This document shows positions 5,805 to 18,184 of a DNA stretch of 36,931 nucleotides, piece after piece. The stretch spans positions 1-36,931 of the forward strand of contig JAEUSX010000060.1 of the NCBI GenBank assembly GCA_016788405.1. Reading direction: 5' to 3'. The DNA comes from Flavobacteriales bacterium (GTDB taxonomy: Bacteria; Bacteroidota; Bacteroidia; Flavobacteriales_F; PHOS-HE28). The notes beneath the pieces are model-generated. The model was not told the origin of the DNA, did not search any database, and saw only the letters and a program-made list of their open reading frames with translations. Position 1 is the stretch's first letter. Every line of letters starts with the position of its first letter. Both the position numbers and the translations under genes were made by a program.

Positions 5805-5861
5805 TAGTGACGCTTGTGTGGCAAGCAGGCTGAACAACCTAGCGCCGTACACATCCCCGGC

Positions 5862-5869
5862 TATTTTTG
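5862..5869 (+). promoter_or_regulatory. Probable -7 element of the act-cox operon
   Basis: TATTTTTG is an exact match to TAnnTTTG and stands out in GC-rich surroundings. It ends 40 nt before the actA ATG. CGGC and GCCG flank the T run symmetrically. No clear -33 TTTG is seen at the usual distance. Confidence 0.5.
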
Positions 5870-5909
5870 CCGCCGACTTAAAGGGGCCTACGCCCAAAAT
5901 CCCTCCGGA

Positions 5910-7235
5910 ATGCCGCTTCCAGCCTGTATTTCACGACGTTCCAAAGGGTCCATCCGCACAGCATTCGCACTCTTCCTGTCCCTGAGCCTCTCGGCCGCGC
6001 ATGCGCAGGCTGACCCGGCGCTCATGGCGCAAGGAGAGAAGCTCTTCAAGGGCAATTGCGCCAGCTGCCACAAGGTGGACTCGAAGATGACCGGTCCCGC
6101 CCTGAAAGGCGCGAAGGCCAAGTGGGAAGGGAAAGGCGACATCTACGCGTGGGTGAAGAACAGCCAGGCCTATCTGAAGACGGGCAACGAGATGGCTGTG
6201 AAGATCTGGGAGGAGTTCAAGCCCGTGCCCATGACCCCGATCGCCCTCACCAACGAGGAGATCGATCAGGTATTCTACTACATCGACAACTATGCGCCTC
6301 CGAAGCCGGTCGTGACGGTCGCGCAGGATGTCGCGGCGAATGACGAAGGGTCCAACAACTGGCTCTGGCTGCTGGTGCTGGGCCTGTTGTTCGCGGTGAT
6401 CGTGCTCTCCCTGGGTGGCGTGAAGCGCAGTTTGCAGAGCGCAGTGCACGAGGCCGAGGGCAAAGGCCCGCTGCCGGATGCATCGGGCTGGCAGCGATTC
6501 AAGGCTTGGGCCTGGGATCACAAGGTCTTCATGAGCTTCGTGAGTCTTTTCATCACCGTTTGGGTGATTTTGAAGCTCTGGGATGCGGCTTGGGTGATCG
6601 GCGTTTATGGCGGCGACGAGGTCGCTCATTACAAGCCTGAGCAGCCCATCCTCTTCAACCACACGCTCCACGCAGGCAAGGCCGACAAGGGCAACCTGGC
6701 CATCAACTGCCAGTACTGCCACAGCAGCGCGGAGAAGAGCAAGCACGCCGGGATACCCAGCGTGAACGTGTGCATGAACTGCCACAAGGCCGTGAGCACC
6801 GGCCGCACCGAAGCAGGCACCGCCGAGATCCAGAAGATCTACAAGCACGCCGGCTGGGACGCCACCGCCGGCAAGTACACCGGCAAGGAGGAGCCTGTGC
6901 GCTGGGTGAAGGTGCACAACCTGCCCGACCATGCATTCTTCAACCACGGCTCGCACGTCGCCATCGGCAAGATTGAATGCCAGACCTGCCATGGACCCAT
7001 CGATGAGCAGATGGATGTCGCCGAGCAGTGGGCGCCGCTCACCATGGGGTGGTGCATCGACTGCCACAACAAGACCGAAGTGAAGATGGCCGGCAATGGC
7101 TATTACGATGAAGTGATGGCCCGGCTGAATAACGACGAGAAGCTGGGCCACCGCGAATTGCAGCAGTATCTGGAGGACGGCAAGATCACCGTGAAGGAGC
7201 TTGGCGGCTGGGAATGCGCCAAGTGCCACTACTAA
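5910..7235 (+). CDS. actA: ACIII subunit ActA: six-heme c-type cytochrome (monoheme + pentaheme)
   Basis: A 441-residue membrane-anchored cytochrome of Alternative Complex III. The ATG at 5910 leads into a signal peptide (about residues 13-32, ending AHA). Six CXXCH heme sites are present: C50, C267, C288, C357, C382 and C436. The first lies in an N-terminal class I-like cytochrome c domain (about 35-130) with candidate Met ligands near 99-108. Two membrane helices follow (about 151-170 and 208-228), then the pentaheme domain typical of ActA. Thus both heme regions should face the periplasm. It passes electrons from the Fe-S subunit ActB towards the oxidase. It is the first gene of the operon, 14 bp before actB. 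An upstream in-frame start at 5814 would include the promoter region and is rejected. Confidence 0.93.
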   Translation: MPLPACISRRSKGSIRTAFALFLSLSLSAAHAQADPALMAQGEKLFKGNCASCHKVDSKMTGPALKGAKAKWEGKGDIYAWVKNSQAYLKTGNEMAVKIWEEFKPVPMTPIALTNEEIDQVFYYIDNYAPPKPVVTVAQDVAANDEGSNNWLWLLVLGLLFAVIVLSLGGVKRSLQSAVHEAEGKGPLPDASGWQRFKAWAWDHKVFMSFVSLFITVWVILKLWDAAWVIGVYGGDEVAHYKPEQPILFNHTLHAGKADKGNLAINCQYCHSSAEKSKHAGIPSVNVCMNCHKAVSTGRTEAGTAEIQKIYKHAGWDATAGKYTGKEEPVRWVKVHNLPDHAFFNHGSHVAIGKIECQTCHGPIDEQMDVAEQWAPLTMGWCIDCHNKTEVKMAGNGYYDEVMARLNNDEKLGHRELQQYLEDGKITVKELGGWECAKCHY

Positions 7236-7249
7236 GAAACGCGCGCACG

Positions 7250-10200
7250 ATGTCGAGCACGAAGCAGTACTGGATGGACGCGGCCGACCTGCGTCAGGAC
7301 CCCGATGCACTCAAGGCGAGCGAGAGCGAATTCGCTCAGCCGTTGGCCATCGACCAGGTGCTGGGCGATGCCAGCTTCCAAGGCGCCAGCACGGGCCGTC
7401 GCGATTTCCTCAAGTTCCTGGGCTTCTCCCTGGGCGCCGCCACGCTGGCCGCTTGCGAGACGCCGGTGATCAAGAGCATCCCCTACGTGACCAAACCCGA
7501 GGAGATCACCCCCGGAGTGGCCAATTGGTACGCGAGCACCTATTACGACGGCCAGGACTTCGCCAGTGTGCTGGTGAAGACGCGCGAAGGCCGTCCCATA
7601 CACATCAAGGGCAACACGCGTCACGGCATCAACCGGAATCCTGCGCTGAACAAGGGCGTGGTGAACGCCCGCATCAATAGCAGCGTGCTCTCGCTGTACG
7701 ACGGAGAGCGTCTCAAAGGCGTGCTGAAGGCAGCCGATGGCAAGTTGACGGGTGCCAAGTGGAGCGAGGCCGATGCGGCCATCAGTCAGGGATTGGATGC
7801 CGCAACGGCCGCGGGCAAGCGCATCGTGCTGCTCACCAGCACCGTGATCAGCCCGAGCTCCAAAGCGGCCATCGCCGCAATGAAGGCGAAGCATGCCACG
7901 GCTGAGCATGTGCAATACGACAGCATCAGCTACAGCGGCCTCACCGGAGCCAACCTCAAGAGCTTCGGCAAACGGGTTTTCCCCGCCTACGACTTCACCA
8001 AGGCCGATGTGGTGGTGAGCGTCGATGCCGACTTCCTCAGCAGCTGGGGCAGCACGACGGAGTACGCCTGGCAGTACGCCAGCCGCCGAAATCCGGATGG
8101 GGCCATGAACAAGCACTTCCAGGTGGAGGCGCGCATGAGCATGAGCGGGGCGAACGCCGATCATCGCGTGCCGGTGAAGGTGAGTGAGATCCCGTTGGCG
8201 GTGATCGCCCTGCACGATGCCATCGCCAAACAGAGCGGTGGAATGACCGTGGGCGGCGGATTGGACAACCCGGAATTGGCCCATGCCGCCCAGGCGCTGC
8301 TCGGCGCGCGTGGTCGCAGCGTGGTGATCTGCGGCAGCAACGATGAGGGCGTGCAGATTCTGGTGAACAGCATCAACAGCATGCTGGGCAACTACGGCAG
8401 CACCATCGATCTGGACAACCACACCTTCTTCTTCCAGGGGGATGACGCTGCGGTTGCGCAGCTTGTGAAGGACATGAATGCCGGCGCGATCGGCGCGCTG
8501 CTCATCGCCGAGGCGAACCCGGCATACAACCTTCCGAATGCCGCGGAGTTCAAGAGCGGTCTTGCCAAGGTGGGCCTTAGCGTGAGCTTCAGCCGGTACG
8601 CCGACGAGACCGCAAGCCTCTGCCAATGGCTCTGCCCCGACAACCACTTCCTGGAGAGCTGGGGCGACTACATGCCGAAGGTGGGCCAATACGCTTTGGC
8701 ACAGCCCACGATCAACAAGCTCTTCGATACACGCGCCTGGCAGGGCAGCTTGCTCAAGTGGAGCGGTGCCGAATTGAAGTGGCCTGACTTCATCGAGCAG
8801 ACCTGGCAGGCCAACCTCGCCGCGCACGGCGCTACCATGGATTTCGGCTCCGTTTGGAATCAGAGCCTGCACGACGGCGTATTCGTCTCGCACGCCATGC
8901 CCGCCACGCCGGTCGCCTTCGCGGGCGATGTGGCCGCCGCGGGTGCCGCAGCCAAGAAAGCCGCAAGCGGTGCAGGCGAATGGGAGTTGAGCCTTTACAC
9001 CACCGAAGCGATCGGGGACGGCCAGCACGCCAATAACCCCTGGCTGCAGGAGATGCCCGATCCGCTCACCAAGATCACGTGGGACAACTACGTGTGCATG
9101 AGCTTCGCGGATGTGCGCAAGCTCGGCCTGCCCGACTACCTCGGCGAGCAATCGCCCGCAGGCGTTGTGACCGTGAAGTCCGGTGATGCCGAATTGAAGC
9201 TCCCCGTGGTGCCCAGCCCTGGTCAGAAGCCGGGCACCATCGCCATAGCTCTTGGATATGGCCGAGGCGCCAGCGGCGAAAAGGTGGGCAAGGCCGCCGT
9301 GGTCACCGACCAAAATGGTGAGCGCAAGCCTGTTGGGCAGAATGCGTTCCCGCTCGCCACGATGCGCAATGGAGCAGTGAGCTATGAGGCGCTCAATGTG
9401 AGCGTTAGCGCCACGGGCGAGACCTACCCGGTGGCCATCACGCAGACGCACCTCACGCACATGGACCGCCACAGCATCGTGAAGGAGACTTCCCTCGCGG
9501 TGTACAAGGCAGGCGACAAGGACGCCTACAACGAGGCGCACACCCTCGCCGTGCATGAGGACGTGAACGAGGACGGCGTGATCGACTCCCGCGACCGCAA
9601 GCCCGTCGCGGAATTCGACCTGTGGGCCGAGCATCCTGTCGAGGGCGTGGGCCACCGTTGGGGCCTGAGCATCGACTTGAACAGCTGCACGGGCTGTGGT
9701 GCCTGCGTGACCGCGTGCAACAGCGAGAACAACATCCCGGTGGTGGGCAAGGATGAAGTGCGCCGCAGCCGTGAGATGCACTGGCTGCGCATCGACCGCT
9801 ATTACAGCAGCGACACCAAGTGGGAAGAGGGCCGTAAGGCGGGCGAGAGCAAGATCTCCCTCTATACCCGGATGGAGGAGCCCAGCGAGCGCCCCAGCGT
9901 GTTCTTCATGCCGGTGATGTGCCAGCACTGCAACCATGCACCGTGCGAGACGGTGTGCCCGGTGGCCGCTACCACGCACAGCAACGAAGGCCTCAACCAG
10001 ATGGCCTACAACCGGTGCATCGGCACGCGCTACTGCGCGAACAACTGCCCTTACAAGGTGCGCCGTTTCAACTGGTTCAACTATGTGACAGAGAAGTTCG
10101 GCGAGGTGAACCCGGCTTGGGACGATCTGGGTCGCATGGTGCTGAATCCCGACGTGACCGTGCGCGCGCGCGGCGTGATCGAGAAGTGCAGCCTGTGCGT

Positions 10201-10459
10201 GCAGCAGATCCAGGCAGGCAAGTTCGCGGCGAAGAAGGCCGGCACTCCGGTGAAGGACGGCAGCATCGAGACCGCATGCAGCGCTGCTTGTGGCACCGGC
10301 GCGATCGTCTTCGGCGACCTGAACGACAAGGGCAGCATGGTGCGCGGCCTGGCCGATGGGAACCGCAGCTACCACATGCTGGAAGAGATCGGCGTGAAGC
10401 CGAACGTGAACTACCTCGTGAAGGTGCGCAACTCTGAAGAGGCCGCTCACCACGCTTAA
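7250..10459 (+). CDS. actB: ACIII subunit ActB: molybdopterin oxidoreductase-like iron-sulfur protein
   Basis: A 1069-residue periplasmic subunit. It starts with an unusually long, hydrophilic lead before the twin-arginine motif GRRDFLKFLGFS (residues 49-60), as expected for the extended Tat signal of this family, and then LAAC (66-69), a possible lipobox. The large middle region (about 75-780) resembles molybdopterin oxidoreductases, a fold that in ACIII is known not to carry molybdenum. The C-terminal ferredoxin-like part has the cluster motifs CTGCGACVTAC (about 813), CQHCNHAPCETVC (about 891), CIGTRYCANNC (about 923), CSLC (about 980) and a last Cys group near 1009, for four Fe-S clusters. 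It takes electrons from the quinol site in ActC and passes them to ActA. The ATG at 7250 is 14 bp after actA. Confidence 0.95.
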   Translation: MSSTKQYWMDAADLRQDPDALKASESEFAQPLAIDQVLGDASFQGASTGRRDFLKFLGFSLGAATLAACETPVIKSIPYVTKPEEITPGVANWYASTYYDGQDFASVLVKTREGRPIHIKGNTRHGINRNPALNKGVVNARINSSVLSLYDGERLKGVLKAADGKLTGAKWSEADAAISQGLDAATAAGKRIVLLTSTVISPSSKAAIAAMKAKHATAEHVQYDSISYSGLTGANLKSFGKRVFPAYDFTKADVVVSVDADFLSSWGSTTEYAWQYASRRNPDGAMNKHFQVEARMSMSGANADHRVPVKVSEIPLAVIALHDAIAKQSGGMTVGGGLDNPELAHAAQALLGARGRSVVICGSNDEGVQILVNSINSMLGNYGSTIDLDNHTFFFQGDDAAVAQLVKDMNAGAIGALLIAEANPAYNLPNAAEFKSGLAKVGLSVSFSRYADETASLCQWLCPDNHFLESWGDYMPKVGQYALAQPTINKLFDTRAWQGSLLKWSGAELKWPDFIEQTWQANLAAHGATMDFGSVWNQSLHDGVFVSHAMPATPVAFAGDVAAAGAAAKKAASGAGEWELSLYTTEAIGDGQHANNPWLQEMPDPLTKITWDNYVCMSFADVRKLGLPDYLGEQSPAGVVTVKSGDAELKLPVVPSPGQKPGTIAIALGYGRGASGEKVGKAAVVTDQNGERKPVGQNAFPLATMRNGAVSYEALNVSVSATGETYPVAITQTHLTHMDRHSIVKETSLAVYKAGDKDAYNEAHTLAVHEDVNEDGVIDSRDRKPVAEFDLWAEHPVEGVGHRWGLSIDLNSCTGCGACVTACNSENNIPVVGKDEVRRSREMHWLRIDRYYSSDTKWEEGRKAGESKISLYTRMEEPSERPSVFFMPVMCQHCNHAPCETVCPVAATTHSNEGLNQMAYNRCIGTRYCANNCPYKVRRFNWFNYVTEKFGEVNPAWDDLGRMVLNPDVTVRARGVIEKCSLCVQQIQAGKFAAKKAGTPVKDGSIETACSAACGTGAIVFGDLNDKGSMVRGLADGNRSYHMLEEIGVKPNVNYLVKVRNSEEAAHHA

Positions 10460-10477: not shown

Positions 10478-11866
10478 ATGCACGCCGAATCAGCGATCAG
10501 AGAACCGCTCATCCTGGGTCACAAGACCTACCACGATATCACGAACGATATCGTCGGCCCGATCGAGAACAAGGCCCCGCGCGGCTGGTACATCCTCATC
10601 ACCATCGCCGGCTTGATCGCCGCCTACGGCACGGGCTGCATCCTGTACCTCATCGGCAAGGGCATCGGCACCTGGGGCCTGAACAAGACGGTGGATTGGG
10701 CCTGGGACATCACCAACTTCGTATGGTGGGTGGGCATCGGTCACGCCGGCACGCTCATCAGCGCGGTGCTGCTGCTCTTCCGTCAGCGCTGGCGCATGGC
10801 CATCAACCGCAGCGCGGAAGCCATGACCATCTTCGCTGTGATCATGGCGGCCACCTTCCCCGGCATTCACATGGGAAGGATCTGGATGGCCTACTGGGTG
10901 TTCCCGCTGCCCAACCAATTCGGAAGCTTGTGGGTGAACTTCAACAGCCCGCTGCTTTGGGACGTGTTCGCGATCAGCACCTACTTCAGCGTGAGCCTTG
11001 TGTTCTGGTACATCGGCCTCATCCCGGATTTCGCCACCATACGCGACCGGGTCACCAGGCCGATGATGAAGAAGGCGTACGGCATCCTGAGCTTCGGCTG
11101 GACGGGCAATGCCAAGGCCTGGACGCGCTTCGAGGAAGTGAGCCTGGTGCTGGCCGGCATCGCCACCCCGCTGGTGTTCTCGGTGCACAGCGTGGTGAGC
11201 TTCGACTTCGCCACCAGCGTGATCCCCGGCTGGCACACCACCATCTTCCCCCCCTACTTCGTGAGCGGTGCCGTGTTCAGCGGCTTCGCCATGGTGCAGA
11301 CGCTGCTGCTTGTGATGCGCAAGGTGATGCACCTGGAGGCCTATATCACGAAGAAGCACATCGAGTACATGAACATCGTGATCATCGTCACCGGCTCCAT
11401 CGTCGGCGTGGCGTACATCACAGAGCTCTTCATCAGCTGGTACAGCGGCGTGGAGTACGAGAGCTACGCCTTCATCAACCGCGCCACCGGTCCTTACCTC
11501 TGGGCCTACTGGAGCATGATGACCTGTAACGTGATCAGCCCGCAGCTCTTCTGGTTCAAGAAGCTGCGCACCCACCTCGGATTCACCTTCTTCATGAGCA
11601 TCATCGTGAACATCGGCATGTGGTTCGAGCGCTTCGTGATCATCGTCACCTCGCTGCACCGTGACTACATGCCCAGCGCATGGACCATGTTCCACCCCAC
11701 CTGGGTGGATGTGGGCGTGTTCCTCGGGACCATCGGCATCTTCTTCACCCTTTACCTGCTCTTCGCCCGTTTCTTCCCGGTGCTGGCGCTGAACGAGGTG
11801 AAGTCAATCCTGAAAGTGAGCGGCGAGAGCTACAAGCAGCAAGCCGCGCAACACCACCATCACTAG
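10478..11866 (+). CDS. actC: ACIII subunit ActC: NrfD-like quinol-binding membrane subunit
   Basis: A 462-residue integral membrane protein of the NrfD/PsrC family with about ten hydrophobic helices. In ACIII this subunit holds the quinol oxidation site next to the Fe-S chain of ActB. The sequence shows the family's histidine- and acid-bearing helices, for example WWVGIGHAGTLIS in the second helix and FPGIHMGRIW further on. It begins 18 bp after actB, with AGGA just upstream of the ATG, and ends 3 bp before actD. The C-terminus is QHHHH, which looks like a tag but is encoded in the natural context and is mirrored by the His-rich N-terminus of CoxA. Confidence 0.95.
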   Translation: MHAESAIREPLILGHKTYHDITNDIVGPIENKAPRGWYILITIAGLIAAYGTGCILYLIGKGIGTWGLNKTVDWAWDITNFVWWVGIGHAGTLISAVLLLFRQRWRMAINRSAEAMTIFAVIMAATFPGIHMGRIWMAYWVFPLPNQFGSLWVNFNSPLLWDVFAISTYFSVSLVFWYIGLIPDFATIRDRVTRPMMKKAYGILSFGWTGNAKAWTRFEEVSLVLAGIATPLVFSVHSVVSFDFATSVIPGWHTTIFPPYFVSGAVFSGFAMVQTLLLVMRKVMHLEAYITKKHIEYMNIVIIVTGSIVGVAYITELFISWYSGVEYESYAFINRATGPYLWAYWSMMTCNVISPQLFWFKKLRTHLGFTFFMSIIVNIGMWFERFVIIVTSLHRDYMPSAWTMFHPTWVDVGVFLGTIGIFFTLYLLFARFFPVLALNEVKSILKVSGESYKQQAAQHHHH

Positions 11867-11869
11867 GCC

Positions 11870-12403
11870 ATGGCGAACAAGGTCATTTACGCGGTCTACG
11901 ACGACCCTGAGCAGCTGAAGGACGGCGCGCGCAAGCTCGTCTCCAGCGGCATCAAGGTGAAGGACGTGTTCTCCCCGTTCCCCGTGCACGGGCTCGACCC
12001 CATCATCGGGATCAAGCGCACGCGCCTGGGCATCGTGAGCTTCATGTTCGGCATCACAGGCACGGCGCTGGCGGTGCTGGGCATCTGGTACTTCAACATC
12101 TACGACTGGCCGATGAACATCGGCGGCAAGCCAAGCTTCCACTATTACCAGAACGTGCCCGCCTTCATCCCGGTCACGTTCGAATTCACAGTGCTCTGCG
12201 CCGCGCACGGCATGGCCATCACCTACCTGATCCGCAACAAGACGCTGCCGGGCCTGCCCGCACGCAATCCCGATCCGCGCACGACCGATGACAAGTTCAT
12301 CATGGAGGTGCGCACCGCCGACAATCATGGCCACAGTTCCGAGGAGATCGCCGGCCTGCTCCGTCAGACCCCTGTGACCGAGATCAACGAGCGCCAATGC
12401 TGA
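11870..12403 (+). CDS. actD: ACIII subunit ActD (DUF3341)
   Basis: A 177-residue protein with a small cytoplasmic N-terminal domain (residues 1-60) containing the DUF3341 pattern of a predicted alpha/beta fold, then two membrane helices (about 58-80 and 97-125) and a cytoplasmic tail. Position and size match ActD, an accessory membrane subunit of ACIII with no cofactor. It begins 3 bp after actC. Its stop codon overlaps the start of actE, which suggests translational coupling. Confidence 0.93.
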   Translation: MANKVIYAVYDDPEQLKDGARKLVSSGIKVKDVFSPFPVHGLDPIIGIKRTRLGIVSFMFGITGTALAVLGIWYFNIYDWPMNIGGKPSFHYYQNVPAFIPVTFEFTVLCAAHGMAITYLIRNKTLPGLPARNPDPRTTDDKFIMEVRTADNHGHSSEEIAGLLRQTPVTEINERQC

Positions 12404-13074
12404 GCACCATGCGCACCGCGAAGACACTCACCACGCTCTTGGGCATCGCGATGCTCACGGCCTGCGGAAGCGACCCGAACAGCCCCGGTGTGGAGTACAT
12501 GCCCGACATGTACCGCAGCCCCGCCGTCGAGGCCTACGTCGATTACGGCCAGGACCCTTATCACCGCAGCGAGGAACTCGCGCAGGAGCAGCGCAACCGA
12601 CCCAGCGCGCGCAAGCCCGTGCCAGGCACCATCGCTTTCAGCGCCGATGCGAGCAAGGCGCAGTTCAACATGCCTTACCCCTACGCGAACACCCCGGAGG
12701 ATTATGAGCGCGCGGGCATTGAGCTGAAGAGCCCGATCGCGATGACGGAAGCGACCGTCGAGAAAGGGAAGGTGATCTACGAGAAGTTCTGCATGCATTG
12801 CCATGGAGCGAACGGCGCTGGCGACGGCCCTGTGGTGAACAATGGGAAGTACCCGCCTCCGGGCGCCTACAATGGCCCCTTGAAGGACCTTCCGGAAGGC
12901 AAGATCTTCCACTCTTTGACCTACGGCAAGAACGTGGCCATGGGCTCCCACGCCTCTCAGTTGAACAAGGAAGAGCGTTGGCTGGTGACGCACTACGTGC
13001 AATACCTGCAGAACGGCGGCAAGATGACCCGAGAAGCTTCCGCAGACACCACCGCAACGGCCGCCACGAACTGA
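12397..13074 (+). CDS. actE: ACIII subunit ActE: monoheme cytochrome c lipoprotein
   Basis: A 225-residue protein with a lipoprotein signal ending in LTAC (Cys23). The mature protein would be anchored by lipid on the periplasmic face. One heme site is present, CMHCH at 132-136, in a class I cytochrome c domain (about 115-215). The preceding YMPDMYRSPAVEAY region is typical of ActE. It works with ActA as the exit route for electrons from ACIII. The start at 12397 overlaps the actD stop by 7 bp; an ATG at 12409 would equally give an intact signal peptide, so the start is uncertain by four codons. It lies 22 bp before actF. Confidence 0.93.
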   Translation: MLSTMRTAKTLTTLLGIAMLTACGSDPNSPGVEYMPDMYRSPAVEAYVDYGQDPYHRSEELAQEQRNRPSARKPVPGTIAFSADASKAQFNMPYPYANTPEDYERAGIELKSPIAMTEATVEKGKVIYEKFCMHCHGANGAGDGPVVNNGKYPPPGAYNGPLKDLPEGKIFHSLTYGKNVAMGSHASQLNKEERWLVTHYVQYLQNGGKMTREASADTTATAATN

Positions 13075-13096: not shown

Positions 13097-14299
13097 ATGA
13101 ACTTCACCATCAGCAAACGGGCGAGCACGCTGAGCATGATCCTGATCGGCGTGGGCGTTCTGGCCACGGTGGCCGGCGTCCTCGGCGACCACAGCGATCA
13201 CCACCAGCGCACTTGGAGCGCTCTGCTCGTGAATGGCTTCTTCTTCTTCGGCATCGGCTTGGGCGCGCTCTTCTTCTACTCGCTCCAGAACGCCACCGAG
13301 ACCGCCTGGAGCGTTCTCGTGAAGCGCGTTTACGAGGCGGTCATGGGCTGGATCCCGGTGGGCGCCATCGTCATGGTCGTGGTGCTCGCGGCGGGCAGCA
13401 TGGGGCTGCATCACGTTTACCACTGGATGGATGCCAGCCTTTATGTGGAAGGACCGAACTACGATCCCATCATGGCCGGCAAGAAGGCCTTCCTGAACCA
13501 GCCTTTCTTCTGGGTCCGCACGCTGGCCTACATCGGTACGTTCGTCTTCGCTGCCCGTTGGTTCCGGAAGAAGAGCCTGGAGATGGACGGCCTCACCGGC
13601 GAGAGCCTCGTGCGCACCCACCTGCTCACCTACCGCCGCGGCGCGCTCTTCCTGGTGTTCTTCGCCGTGTTCAGCAGCACGCTCGCGTGGGACTGGCTCA
13701 TGAGCATCGATGCGCATTGGTTCAGCACCCTCTTCGGCTGGTACGTCTTCAGCGGCATGTGGGTGAGCGCCATGATCACCGGCGTGGTGATGGTGCTTTA
13801 CCTGAAGCGCAAAGGCTACCTGCCCCAGGTGAACAACAGCCACATCCACGACATGGGCAAGTGGGTGTTCGCCGTCAGCTTCCTGTGGACCTACCTGTAC
13901 TTCTCGCAGTTCATGCTGATCTGGTACAGCAACATCCCGGAGGAAGTGACCTATTTCCAGCAGCGCATCAATGAGCATCCCGGACTGATGTGGACGACCT
14001 TCTTCATCAACTTCGCGGTGCCCATGGTGCTGCTCATGAGCCGCGATGCGAAGCGCAACCCGCGCTTCCTCATCGGCGTGGGCACGGTGATCTTCATCGG
14101 CCACTGGATGGACATCAACATGATCGTCATGCCCGGTGCCGTTGGCCATCATTTCCATGGCCTCGGGCTGCTCGATGCCGGCCTATTCGTGCTCTTCCTG
14201 GGCGCCTTCATCCGCGTGGTGCTGGGCACCCTGGCGAAGGCGCCGCTCACGCCGGTGAACCACCCTTACCTGGAGGAGAGCGTACACCATAGCATCTGA
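13097..14299 (+). CDS. actF: ACIII subunit ActF: NrfD-like membrane subunit
   Basis: A 400-residue integral membrane protein with about ten helices, distantly related to ActC. In ACIII it packs beside ActC and is a proposed part of a proton path, without a bound redox cofactor. Features that fit are the alternating hydrophobic helices, a histidine-rich second half (GHWMDINMIVMPGAVGHHFH around residues 334-353) and the position directly after actE. The 45-bp gap before coxB is the longest inside the operon but holds no terminator. Confidence 0.93.
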   Translation: MNFTISKRASTLSMILIGVGVLATVAGVLGDHSDHHQRTWSALLVNGFFFFGIGLGALFFYSLQNATETAWSVLVKRVYEAVMGWIPVGAIVMVVVLAAGSMGLHHVYHWMDASLYVEGPNYDPIMAGKKAFLNQPFFWVRTLAYIGTFVFAARWFRKKSLEMDGLTGESLVRTHLLTYRRGALFLVFFAVFSSTLAWDWLMSIDAHWFSTLFGWYVFSGMWVSAMITGVVMVLYLKRKGYLPQVNNSHIHDMGKWVFAVSFLWTYLYFSQFMLIWYSNIPEEVTYFQQRINEHPGLMWTTFFINFAVPMVLLMSRDAKRNPRFLIGVGTVIFIGHWMDINMIVMPGAVGHHFHGLGLLDAGLFVLFLGAFIRVVLGTLAKAPLTPVNHPYLEESVHHSI

Positions 14300-14344: not shown

Positions 14345-15667
14345 ATGACCAAGCTCCTGATCCTGATCGTCGTGGTACTGGGCATCCTGGCGGTGGCCCA
14401 GCTGGCCCGCGTGTACGAGCTCACCTCCAAGCTTCGCGGCAAGCGCGAGGAGGATATCACGCCTGCCGACAACCGCATGAACGCGATGCTCATGTGGCTC
14501 TTCCCCTTCGCCTATTTCGGCTTCTTCCTCTGGCTGGTGCTCGCATACGGCGACAAGATGCTCCCCGTGGCGGCGAGCACCCAAGGCGCTGACACCGACG
14601 CGCTGCTCGACTTCAACTGGTGGATACTCATCTCGGTGTTCATCATCACGAACGCGCTGCTTTTCTTCTATGCGGGCAAATACGTGTACGATAAGAACCG
14701 AAAGGCCTTCTGGCAGCCGCACAACAACAAGCTCGAATTGGCCTGGACCATCGCGCCGGCGATCGTGCTGTTCGTGATCATCATCTACGGCCTCACCACG
14801 TGGCAGCACATCACGGCTCCGGCCGGACCCGATGCGGTGCACGTGGAGCTCTACGCCAAGCAGTTCGACTGGACCGCGCGCTATCCCGGCCAGGACGGCA
14901 TGCTGGGCGCAACGGATTACCGCCTCATCAACGGGGAGAACCCGCTGGGCATCGTCACGGAGAAGGCGCTGGCCGCGCGCTTGGCGGAGATCGAGAAGGA
15001 GAAGGCCGAAGCCATGGCCAGCCTGGACCAAGTGCTCCCGGAATCGAAAGTGGCGGAGATCGAGCACCGCATCGAATACCTGGATCGCATGGCCGCCCGG
15101 TTGGTGAACCTGCGCATGGTGATGGAGCAGGACATCAAGACGAACGGTGATGCCAGTGCTTATCTGCATGGCGCTGACGATGTGGTGACCAAGGACTTCC
15201 ATCTGCCCGTGAACAAGGAGTCGAACATCCTGATCCGCAGCCGCGACATCATCCACAGCGCCTTCATCCCGCACCTGCGCATTCAGATGAACGCCGTGCC
15301 CGGCATGACCACGAGCATGAAAGTGGTGCCCACCATCACCACCGACAGCATGCGCACCATCCCGGAAGTGATGCGCCAGGTCGAGGAGATCAATGCTTTG
15401 CGCCAGAAGCAGGGCAAGGAGGCCTATGTGTTCGATTTCATCCTGCTCTGCAACAAGATCTGCGGCGCCAGCCATTACAACATGCAGATGCCGCTGATCG
15501 TGACCAGCGCCGCTGAATTCGATGCCTGGGTGGCCGAAGCGAACAAGAAGCCCTTCGAGGGGAGCGCCGAAGCCGCCGCGCCCACGACGACAGATTCCAC
15601 GAACACCAGCGCTGGCGCTGACTCCATGGCGGTTGCCATGGCCAATGGCCAGCCGACGAACCCGTAA
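14345..15667 (+). CDS. coxB: Cytochrome c oxidase subunit II with a long helical insertion
   Basis: A 440-residue subunit II, which receives electrons at the CuA centre. Four hydrophobic helices are visible (about 3-22, 47-69, 92-114 and 133-153), one or two more than classical subunit II. The CuA ligands are in place: His304, then CNKICGASHYNM with Cys369, Cys373, His377 and Met380. The usual Glu between the cysteines is Lys371, a change I believe is shared by many Bacteroidota. Between the first cupredoxin strands (ending about 195) and DVVTKDFHLPV (from 279) there is an 80-residue insertion rich in Glu, Lys, Ala and Leu that looks like a coiled coil. A second shorter helical insertion lies at 340-360. 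The tail (405-440) is low-complexity. It is 12 bp before coxA. Confidence 0.95.
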   Translation: MTKLLILIVVVLGILAVAQLARVYELTSKLRGKREEDITPADNRMNAMLMWLFPFAYFGFFLWLVLAYGDKMLPVAASTQGADTDALLDFNWWILISVFIITNALLFFYAGKYVYDKNRKAFWQPHNNKLELAWTIAPAIVLFVIIIYGLTTWQHITAPAGPDAVHVELYAKQFDWTARYPGQDGMLGATDYRLINGENPLGIVTEKALAARLAEIEKEKAEAMASLDQVLPESKVAEIEHRIEYLDRMAARLVNLRMVMEQDIKTNGDASAYLHGADDVVTKDFHLPVNKESNILIRSRDIIHSAFIPHLRIQMNAVPGMTTSMKVVPTITTDSMRTIPEVMRQVEEINALRQKQGKEAYVFDFILLCNKICGASHYNMQMPLIVTSAAEFDAWVAEANKKPFEGSAEAAAPTTTDSTNTSAGADSMAVAMANGQPTNP

Positions 15668-15679
15668 GCAGAGACGACC

Positions 15680-17482
15680 ATGGGTGCACACGCGCACGCA
15701 GCAGACGCCGGGCACGCCGCCGGCCATCACGCGCATCATCATCACGAGGAGAGCTTCATCTCCAAGTGGGTGTTCTCGCAGGACCATAAGATGATCGGGA
15801 AGCAGTTCCTGGTCACCGCCATTGTCATGGCCTGGGTGGCCGTGATCATGTCGCTCATCTTCCGCCTGCAGCTGGCCTGGCCCAATGAGGGCTTCGCCTT
15901 CACCAACTTCTTCCTCGGTGACAAATGGGCGCCGGGCGGCGTGCTTGATAGCAACATGTACCTGGCCCTCGTCACGATACACGGCACCATCATGGTGTTC
16001 TTCGTGCTCACCGGCGGATTGAGCGGCACGTTCGCCAATCTGCTCATCCCCTTGCAGGTCGGAGCCCGCGACATGGCCAGCGGCTTCATCAACATGCTCA
16101 GTTATTGGTTCTTCTTCCTGAGCAGCGTGGTGATGCTCGCATCGCTCTTCGTGGAAGGCGGGCCCGCCAGTGCCGGATGGACGATTTATCCACCGCTAAG
16201 CGCATTGCCGAAAGCCATCCCGGGATCAGGCACCGGCATGACCCTCTGGCTGGTGAGCATGACGCTCTTCATCGCCAGCTCGCTCATGGGCGGCCTCAAT
16301 TACGTGGTCACCATCCTCAACCTGCGCACGAAGGGGATGAAGATGACCCGCCTGCCGCTCACCATCTGGGCGCTCTTCCTCACCGCGGTGCTCGGCATCC
16401 TGAGCTTCCCGGTGCTCCTCAGCGCTGCATTGCTCCTTCTGCTCGACCGCACCATCGGCACGAGCTTCTACCTCAGCGACATCCACCTGGCCGGTGAGGC
16501 GCTTGAGCAAACAGGCGGCAGCCCGATCCTGTTCCAGCACCTGTTCTGGTTCCTCGGGCACCCTGAAGTGTACATCGTGCTGCTGCCCGCGTTGGGCATC
16601 ACCTCGGAGATCATCTCCACCAATGCTCGGAAGCCCATCTTCGGTTATCGCGCCATGATCGGCTCCATCCTCGCGATCGGATTCCTCAGCTTCATCGTGT
16701 GGGGGCACCACATGTTCGTCACGGGCATGAACCCCTTCCTGGGAAGCGTGTTCGTGGCCACCACGCTGCTGATCGCGATACCCAGCGCCGTGAAGGTGTT
16801 CAACTACATCACCACGCTCTGGCGCGGCAACATCGTCTTCACCCCGGGCATGCTCTTCAGCATCGGCTTGGTGGCCACCTTCATCGCAGGCGGCCTCACA
16901 GGCATCATCCTCGCGGACAGCGCGCTCGACATCGCCGTCCACGACACCTACTTCGTGGTCGCGCACTTCCATATCGTGATGGGCATGAGCGCCATCTTCG
17001 GCATGTTCGCCGGCATCTACCATTGGTTCCCGAAGATGTACGGGAAGATGATGAACACGAAGCTGGGCTACGCGCACTTCTGGATCACCTTCATCTGCGC
17101 GTTCGGCGTGTTCTTCCCCATGCACTTCATCGGGCTGGCCGGTGCCCCGCGCCGCTATTACAACTACACGGAATTCCCCATGTTCGACAGCGTGGTGGAC
17201 CTGAACATCGTGGTGACCATCTTCGCCATCGTCGGCGCGCTGGCCCAGGTGATCTTCACGTACAATTTCTTCTACAGCGTTTTCCGAGGGCCCAAAGCCG
17301 TGCAGAACCCCTGGAAGAGCAATACACTGGAGTGGACCACGCCGGTGGAGCATATCCATGGCAACTGGCCCGGGCCCATCCCCACCGTTCACCGCTGGCC
17401 ATATGATTACAGCAAGCCCGGCAAGCAGGAGGATTGGGTGAGCCAGATCACCCCGCTCGATCACGACGAGGAAGAGCACTGA
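15680..17482 (+). CDS. coxA: Cytochrome c oxidase subunit I (A1-type heme-copper oxidase)
   Basis: A 600-residue, twelve-helix subunit I that reduces oxygen and pumps protons. All metal ligands are visible: His101 and His431 for the low-spin heme, His429 for heme a3, and His294, His343 and His344 for CuB. The motif GHPEVY (293-298) supplies the D-channel Glu296 and the crosslinked Tyr298, which places it in type A1. The N-terminus (residues 4-22) is very His-rich. A subunit III gene does not follow; the next gene is unrelated and the cox genes end at a strong inverted repeat. In Flavobacterium an ACIII-aa3 supercomplex is known, and the shared operon here fits the same arrangement. Confidence 0.97.
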   Translation: MGAHAHAADAGHAAGHHAHHHHEESFISKWVFSQDHKMIGKQFLVTAIVMAWVAVIMSLIFRLQLAWPNEGFAFTNFFLGDKWAPGGVLDSNMYLALVTIHGTIMVFFVLTGGLSGTFANLLIPLQVGARDMASGFINMLSYWFFFLSSVVMLASLFVEGGPASAGWTIYPPLSALPKAIPGSGTGMTLWLVSMTLFIASSLMGGLNYVVTILNLRTKGMKMTRLPLTIWALFLTAVLGILSFPVLLSAALLLLLDRTIGTSFYLSDIHLAGEALEQTGGSPILFQHLFWFLGHPEVYIVLLPALGITSEIISTNARKPIFGYRAMIGSILAIGFLSFIVWGHHMFVTGMNPFLGSVFVATTLLIAIPSAVKVFNYITTLWRGNIVFTPGMLFSIGLVATFIAGGLTGIILADSALDIAVHDTYFVVAHFHIVMGMSAIFGMFAGIYHWFPKMYGKMMNTKLGYAHFWITFICAFGVFFPMHFIGLAGAPRRYYNYTEFPMFDSVVDLNIVVTIFAIVGALAQVIFTYNFFYSVFRGPKAVQNPWKSNTLEWTTPVEHIHGNWPGPIPTVHRWPYDYSKPGKQEDWVSQITPLDHDEEEH

Positions 17483-17512
17483 GCCTTCCGCGTGAGCAGC
17501 ACGCCACCGTTG

Positions 17513-17544
17513 GGAATGTCCGCACCTTTGGTCGCGGACATTCC
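17513..17544. terminator. Perfect 11-bp inverted repeat after coxA
   Basis: GGAATGTCCGC (17513-17523) pairs exactly with GCGGACATTCC (17534-17544); the 10-nt loop can pair further as ACC with GGT across a one-base bulge. It lies 30 nt after the coxA stop and 13 nt before the next start. No T run follows on either strand, so it may be a 3'-end stabiliser or attenuating hairpin rather than a classic terminator. Confidence 0.5.
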
Positions 17545-17557
17545 GGTTTCTGGGCCC

Positions 17558-18184
17558 ATGCGCGCAAGGTTCCTTCTGCTTCTCCTGCTCGTCTCGTGCA
17601 GCAGCCATGCGCAACTGTTGGACAGCATCGGCCTTTTCGTCAAGGAACCGCCCCGAGTGCTCGTGCGCTTCGATGCCCGCGGAGGCTTCATCAGTAACCG
17701 CGGCGTGCGATTCGTGGGCCTGAAAGTGGGCCGCGAGCACGCGCGCCGGTTCCAGTACGGCATTGGCTACAGCATGCTCTTCCCCAGCGAAGCGCGCGAT
17801 GTGACCGTGGGTGGGCGGATCGAATCCGGACGCCTTCGCATGGGGTACATCGCACCATACGTGGACTATGCCTTCTTCCAGCGCGGGCATTGGGAGGCGC
17901 GCATCCCGATGCAGGTCGGGTTCGGAACCGGCTCTCTCTCCTACCGGGACGCCGAAGGCAGGCGCCGCAACATCGCGCGCACCGGGCTCATCCTGTACGA
18001 GCCTGCCATGACGGTGCAGTACCGGTTCCTGCGCTACTTCGCCATCGGCGCGGGCTGGGGCTTCCGGCTGGTGATACAGACTGGCGATGACCTGGGTGAA
18101 AGGCTCACGGCACCGGTGTACCTCTTCGGGCTGCGCATTTTCATTGGCGATATGTGGCGCGATGCGCGCGGAGCCCCGGAATGA
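17558..18184 (+). CDS. Small outer-membrane beta-barrel-like protein, hypothetical
   Basis: A 208-residue exported protein that I do not assign to a named family. The ATG at 17558 gives a short signal peptide with seven Leu-rich residues. It ends either in LVSC (Cys14, a lipobox) or in SHA followed by Gln (type I cleavage). The rest alternates polar and hydrophobic or aromatic residues in about eight short strands, for example RLRMGYIAPYVDYAFF and YFAIGAGWGFRLVI, which suggests a small membrane beta-barrel. An earlier in-frame start at 17492 would read through the inverted repeat and add a poor N-terminus, so I reject it. It precedes ruvB by 24 bp and may be cotranscribed with it, though ruvB has its own promoter-like element. 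Confidence 0.65.
   Translation: MRARFLLLLLLVSCSSHAQLLDSIGLFVKEPPRVLVRFDARGGFISNRGVRFVGLKVGREHARRFQYGIGYSMLFPSEARDVTVGGRIESGRLRMGYIAPYVDYAFFQRGHWEARIPMQVGFGTGSLSYRDAEGRRRNIARTGLILYEPAMTVQYRFLRYFAIGAGWGFRLVIQTGDDLGERLTAPVYLFGLRIFIGDMWRDARGAPE

Follow-up and report, generated by a model that had tools for sequence, protein, structure and literature searches.

What does a long helical insertion do inside the CuA domain of a cytochrome c oxidase subunit II whose gene follows a set of ACIII genes? The question is raised by coxB in a 36,931-nt stretch of DNA, hereafter the window, from contig JAEUSX010000060.1 of a Flavobacteriales bacterium (GCA_016788405.1). A sequence-only reading had proposed that an insertion at about residues 200-275 is a docking arm that contacts ActA, ActE or the membrane surface and belongs with ACIII, and had pointed out a second helical insertion at about residues 340-360 and a Lys at position 371 that could alter the region of the Mg site.

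In the window, the genes are ordered actABCDEF-coxB-coxA (Table 1), and the first CxxCH of actA sits in an N-terminal mono-heme domain. An unassigned 230-residue ORF (17492-18184) with no Pfam or NCBIfam match lies between coxA and ruvB; none of the ORFs scanned beside coxA was recognized as a subunit III gene. The genome consists of 262 contigs (2.53 Mb, completeness 79.5%) and yields one COX2 match. CoxB passes the Pfam cut-offs for the transmembrane (PF02790, 35.9 vs 22.8 bits) and periplasmic (PF00116, 27.1 vs 22) domains, with a CuA match that spans just 45 profile positions, and matches the NCBIfam equivalog TIGR02866 (E 1.6e-25, 89.9 bits) below its cut-off of 147.7, which we ascribe to the divergence of CoxB and its insertions. 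The five residues of the CuA ligand region are invariant in the 72 rows of an alignment designated A1. By its two domains and these ligands, CoxB is classified as an A-type cytochrome c oxidase subunit II. Four predicted helices (residues 2-30, 40-71, 79-112 and 128-157) precede the CuA domain.

Table 1. Features of the ACIII and oxidase genes in the window, with positions counted from its first nucleotide.
Feature	Position	Strand	Basis
actA	5814..7235	+	longest frame, TTG start, six CxxCH; true start may be further in
actB	7214-10459	+	
actC	10478-11866	+	
actD	11870-12403	+	
actE	12397-13074	+	one CxxCH
actF	13097-14299	+	by position; no Pfam or NCBIfam match
coxB, cytochrome c oxidase subunit II, 440 aa	14345..15667	+	ORF; Pfam, NCBIfam matches
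Insertion 1, residues ~203-277, predicted helical hairpin	14951..15175	+	alignment lengths; AlphaFold2
Hairpin helix 1, residues 206-227	14960..15025	+	AlphaFold2, pLDDT about 97-98
Hairpin helix 2, residues 233-270	15041..15154	+	AlphaFold2, pLDDT about 97-98
CuA ligand region: His304, Cys369, Cys373, His377, Met380	15254..15484	+	
Insertion 2, 18 residues within residues ~337-360, predicted helix 340-355	15353..15424	+	alignment lengths; AlphaFold2
Lys371, equivalent to bovine Glu198 (ligand of Mg and, by its backbone, of CuA)	15455..15457	+	
coxA, subunit I	15680..17482	+	Pfam, NCBIfam matches
CoxA His421-Asp422, subunit I side of Mg site	16940..16945 (Asp 16943-16945)	+	

Alphaproteobacterial CoxB (Rhodobacter sphaeroides, 1M56/2GSM; Paracoccus denitrificans, 1AR1/7AU6) has the same transmembrane region and CuA cupredoxin fold, with presumably two fewer N-terminal helices, and a Glu where the window protein has Lys371. 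The window model aligns with the Paracoccus chain 7au6_B over 211 residues (VIA Z 15.6, rmsd 2.8), and the Rhodobacter protein also has an enlarged loop at the position of insertion 1, which at 45 residues is much shorter than that of the window. In caa3 oxidases (Thermus, 2YEV; Rhodothermus marinus), the cytochrome c domain is C-terminal on subunit II. The window CoxB contains no CxxCH and falls outside the caa3 type, which is recognized by that domain; some of its relatives likewise have a CoxB with a cytochrome c domain but, unlike the caa3 oxidases, at the N-terminus, and these belong to families other than that of the window. Actinobacterial CtaC of the bcc-aa3 supercomplexes (6ADQ, 7QHM, 7Q21) likewise carries CuA for an oxidase that is coupled directly to its reductase, and more of the window model (262 residues) aligns to it, but more loosely (6adq_E, rmsd 5.5); there the reductase is bcc, not ACIII, and Glu287 keeps a Mn site, as described in the accessible part of PMC8795186. 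The Flavobacterium johnsoniae ACIII-aa3 complex (6BTM, EMD-7447) is of the same class as that of the window, with ACIII joined to aa3 and a mobile heme domain at the N-terminus of ActA (PMC8552683, in part). The relative compared within that genus was Flavobacterium cheniae, not F. johnsoniae itself; its CoxB (locus L108) is devoid of insertion 1 and has a longer insertion 2 (the respective stretches measure 45 and 47 residues).

The first insertion is real, with borders close to those first proposed. CoxB was aligned from 111 loci, a set then widened to 183 distinct proteins (a locus scan kept the best 80 loci), and the stretch matching residues 175-285 was measured. It counts 111 residues in the window vs 45-48 in 69 of the 183 rows, termed uninserted here; two further rows have 51 and 55 residues, and 111 inserted rows have 102-178. 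A fragment row, L109, is grouped with the uninserted rows in this set but is actually inserted, at 113 residues. Insertion 1 adds ~65 residues to the window protein and is confidently predicted to form a helical hairpin in an AlphaFold2 model of CoxB alone built on 72 sequences (mean pLDDT 89.1, pTM 0.79; the two helices are listed in Table 1). In the model of an f52 CoxB (L067, 160-residue stretch), the arm starts at the same place but is longer and broken, with helices at 204-243, 257-276 and 284-314 and block means of pLDDT from 75 to 97. A search of insertion 1 for a tandem repeat found none. In the 183-row alignment, the hairpin sequence is poorly conserved away from its base, tip included; among the columns of helix 2 filled in all inserted rows, no single residue is commoner than Arg248 (76%) and Arg252 (66%). 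Very long hairpins (157-176-residue stretch) of families f13 (L070, L082, L152) and f52 (L067, L173) have His-rich tips, which could possibly bind metal.

A Flavobacterium-led CoxB profile built from 20 uninserted loci (A2) matched no PDB sequence so closely that it could be a CoxB from Bacteroidota; its best match was Rhodobacter CoxB (E 1.1e-23), and bovine residue numbers were transferred through this alignment. The loop that follows Tyr192 and precedes the strand at ~285-288 corresponds to the bovine Cox2 loop from Ser117-Tyr121 to Asp139, and insertion 1 falls between the equivalents of these residues. In the bovine complex, Tyr105, Ser117, Asp119, Tyr121 and Asp139 contact cytochrome c (PMC5286356, in the part available). 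Uninserted loops follow the pattern NxxGxDxxDxxxxDD, with Asp in 92% of rows at position 204, 96% at 207 and 100% at 278 and 279; in inserted rows, Asp278 and Asp279 are retained (98% and 100%), whereas Asp is not the commonest residue at 204 and 207. In the alignment, the hairpin stands where uninserted rows have a conserved acidic loop. Because insertion 1 lies in the donor docking region beside CuA, its contact with an ACIII heme domain is plausible. We favor, with evenly balanced confidence, a reading in which insertion 1 would be a part of the heme-donor docking site that varies between lineages and Lys371 would be a separate feature, a Lys-Asp bridge that stands in for Mg. The hairpin would have grown from the loop of the CuA domain at which the electron donor docks. 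It would flank the place where a mono-heme cytochrome domain meets CuA and would shape or guide the docking, not tie ACIII to the oxidase; the donor to CuA would most likely be the mobile N-terminal heme domain of ActA.

The hairpin could instead be an ornament that only caps or stabilizes the CuA domain, or the product of a loop that tolerates changes in length with nearly neutral effect. Between two shared landmarks, the window CoxB has about 101 residues, Rhodobacter CoxB has 45 and the Thermus caa3 subunit has 9, and therefore the loop varies in length in other oxidases too; this variation and the poor conservation of the tip both favor the ornament, as does the history of the insertion. 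On an operon tree (FastTree; ActB, ActC, ActF and CoxA of 119 units from the class Bacteroidia, 71 of them inserted, after gap-rich columns and rows were dropped), insertion 1 requires 6 changes, all 6 forced by starred branches, vs ~38 with shuffled labels; a CoxB-core tree has 7 changes, 3 of them forced. Among the families read, insertion 1 occurs in f1, f5, f11, f13, f19, f28, f38, f52, f53 and f60, and in a phylum-wide sample CoxB matches that span the insertion come only from class members (f1, f19 and f52) among the matches listed. Against the ornament, the acidic residues displaced by the hairpin are more than 90% conserved in uninserted rows, the long helices are confidently ordered in the model, and in the order of the window the hairpin is kept in all 43 of the 45 genomes (the window genome included) that have a CoxB match, each match running unbroken through insertion 1, with 50-79% identity in the relatives. 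We regard mere ornament as unlikely.

That the hairpin clamps the oxidase to ActA or ActE and evolved with the ACIII operon, as first supposed, agrees with its place in the donor docking region and with actF lying directly 5' of coxB, but the survey of relatives did not bear out the association. Upstream sequence of 8.5 kb or more was available for 61 of 80 named loci, and in these actA-F is complete beside CoxB of both types, in 46/46 inserted loci (L109 counted as inserted) and 15/15 uninserted ones. Five inserted loci (L216-L220, from f38, f53 and f60) have no ActB-F match in the 9-11 kb upstream, and their genomes carry ACIII genes elsewhere. In the order of the window, ActD is found in 39/45 genomes, and both CoxB and ActD in 30/30 of those at least 90% complete; across a sample of the class, CoxB is found in 269/295 genomes and ActD in 267/295, yet most of the CoxB matches are split in two pieces around insertion 1. 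On the operon tree, insertion 1 appears to have changed at least six times without tracking ACIII, and co-occurrence with ACIII was rejected as its cause. In F. johnsoniae, furthermore, the interactions between ACIII and aa3 are mediated by oxidase subunit III, according to the accessible portion of a review (PMC8361435). A clamp is improbable. There is no more than a slim chance that the hairpin is a platform to which another protein of the periplasm binds, whether a soluble cytochrome, an accessory subunit or a factor that loads copper. The His-rich tips of f13 and f52, which could bind metal, would speak for it, but the insertion in the window has no His cluster, nor do most of the inserts inspected.

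In F. johnsoniae, cytochrome aa3 receives electrons from ACIII alone, and the transfer can proceed without ActE. The mobile heme domain at the N-terminus of ActA is proposed to shuttle the electrons; its docking site is reported as not known in the available text of the same paper (PMC8552683). The accessible part of PMC5928083 places ActE near subunit IIc in a 20 A map of the R. marinus complex and notes that Flavobacterium ActA has an extra heme domain, which seems to substitute for the heme domain of caa3 oxidases. In nine families (f10, f16, f17, f38, f50, f53, f56, f58 and f59), CoxB has an N-terminal extension with one CxxCH (L163-L166, L174-L177, L182, L189, L195, L198, L202, L204, L206 and L207) that matches the N-terminal mono-heme domain of ActA. 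Seven genomes (five of f53, one each of f16 and f58) encode an ActA with only five CxxCH that has lost its own N-terminal heme domain, as if the domain had moved between ActA and CoxB in these families; ActA retains six CxxCH in nine genomes read from the remaining families with the fusion. The fusions and the five-CxxCH ActA proteins together fit an electron route from the ActA domain to CuA, and the donor is probably this domain. CoxB with a fused heme domain occurs both with the hairpin (f38, f53) and without it, and thus a heme domain can dock in the absence of the hairpin.

A search for a partner subunit by co-variation singled out none: of 3,652 operon columns scanned in six contrasts (with residues counted from the open-frame start, a few above protein numbering, and with gap-rich columns and rows dropped, as also for the CoxB-core tree and the CoxA column comparison), 29 followed insertion 1 at a score of at least 3. 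The top two are insertion columns in CoxB itself, and ActA-F and CoxA share the remaining 27 among them. One candidate for a partner signature, a shift of a Trp within the heme domain of ActA, was considered and rejected. It was present in 47/49 inserted and 0/22 uninserted members of an early set and agrees with the insertion in 94 of the 108 units for which both traits are known, but exceptions run both ways (f3 and f30 without the insertion; f11, f38, f53, f60 and L109 with it) and independent pairs gave 3 changes the same way, 1 opposite and 2 unchanged (p 0.625). A Pagel-type likelihood test returned a ratio of 29.5, which is not relied on because the test inflates with few independent changes and the optimizer had few restarts. 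Two separate observations were made on ACIII genes. Residue ~159 of ActB (open-frame count) is mostly Lys in inserted rows and mostly Glu in uninserted ones and is positive in 6/6 contrasts, which could be chance among so many columns. In one genome of f13 (G099; L225, L263, L264), actA is split over two open frames, and the record may hold a real break or an assembly error.

The second insertion is also real and has a history of its own. The stretch 331-367 measures 37 residues in the window vs 19-20 in 149 of the 183 rows, and the extra residues are modeled as a helix. Insertion 2 is present in 29 rows, 21 of which lack insertion 1, and several families without insertion 1 have 37-47 residues in this stretch; it changes 13 times on the CoxB-core tree and 9 times on the operon tree. 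From these alignments, insertion 2 is a separate trait, patchy across Bacteroidia, and the idea that the two insertions form one device was rejected on these counts. The initial statement that typical subunit II has neither insertion survives for insertion 1 at this length only; insertion 2 is common in the Bacteroidia read. Within the genus of the window (g1), the 37-residue form was seen only in the window and in L113 (G057), the other congeners read having 19-20 residues and the sister rows of the window, L003 and L032, having 20. This pattern suggests recombination or repeated loss.

Lys371 lies at the position of bovine Glu198. In the bovine enzyme, the Glu198 carboxylate binds Mg and its backbone binds CuA (PMC10194837); Thermus ba3 has Gln at this position and no Mg (PMC12901375); and Corynebacterium Glu287, which we take to be the equivalent of CoxB residue 371, is a CuA ligand at a Mn site and a proposed proton exit (PMC8795186), each according to the part of the source available. 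The window oxidase retains the subunit I half of the classical Mg/Mn site and has Lys in place of the subunit II Glu, and because of this replacement it is not filed as a Mg-site oxidase. The subunit I half is CoxA His421-Asp422, which we take to be bovine His368-Asp369. Lys371 is found in 158 of the 183 CoxB rows: residue 371 is Lys in 106 and Asn in 5 of the 111 inserted rows, and Lys in 52, Gln in 13, Glu in 5, Arg in 1 and a gap in 1 of the other 72 (fragment row L109 included).

The residue at 371 goes with a particular residue in CoxA. Among 151 distinct CoxA/CoxB pairs, the residues at CoxB 371 and CoxA 422 are 128 Lys/Asp (one of them with Asn for the CoxA His), 4 Glu/Asp, 8 Gln/Asn, 2 Gln/Asp, 5 Asn/His, 1 Asn/Asn and 3 Arg/Gly, frequencies that do not represent a random sample because families with Gln, Glu or Arg at CoxB 371 were added deliberately; the families of L311, L314, L322 and L323, 4 of the 20 added loci, in which the CoxA motif was not found, are outside these pairs. 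Glu or Lys always occurs with Asp in CoxA (132/132), and Gln, Asn or Arg occurs with another residue in 17/19. Asp422 (numbered 426 in the column scan, which uses the open-frame count) is the best separator of Glu/Lys from the rest among 512 CoxA columns. The co-change counts only four independent transitions, with a mean of 3.7 changes the same way, 0 opposite and 0.3 unchanged (p 0.125). A salt bridge between Lys371 and Asp422 probably replaces Mg. The suggestion that Lys371 alters the Mg site thus held up, with a matching change at CoxA Asp422, and the replacement turned out to be widespread in the class and not peculiar to the window gene. As judged from sequence, remodeling of the Mg site is better supported than a docking arm, and it is more testable.

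Literature searches judged by titles and abstract openings, with most of the subscription literature outside their reach, turned up nothing on an insertion in CoxB of Bacteroidota or on a Mg site with Lys. The residue pair at the Mg site is Lys-Asp in most of the proteins read, and Gln-Asn, Asn-His and Arg-Gly also occur. A broader proposition, which we advance tentatively and hold at somewhat less than even confidence, is that Bacteroidia may have rebuilt the Mg site in several ways and that a repeatedly gained rail beside CuA may steer a heme domain that moves between ActA and CoxB. Glu198 and Mg are central to published ideas on how pumped protons are stored and released (PMC10194837, PMC12901375, PMC8795186, each in the part accessible). 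If the proposition is true, proton pumping in the greater part of a bacterial class would do without Glu198-Mg, an element used by current models of proton storage and proton exit. The many A-type oxidases of one class that lack this Glu and have matching changes in subunit I would provide a natural test of these models, and the hairpin, together with the relocating heme domain, would show how the hand-over of electrons from ACIII to the oxidase is remodeled.
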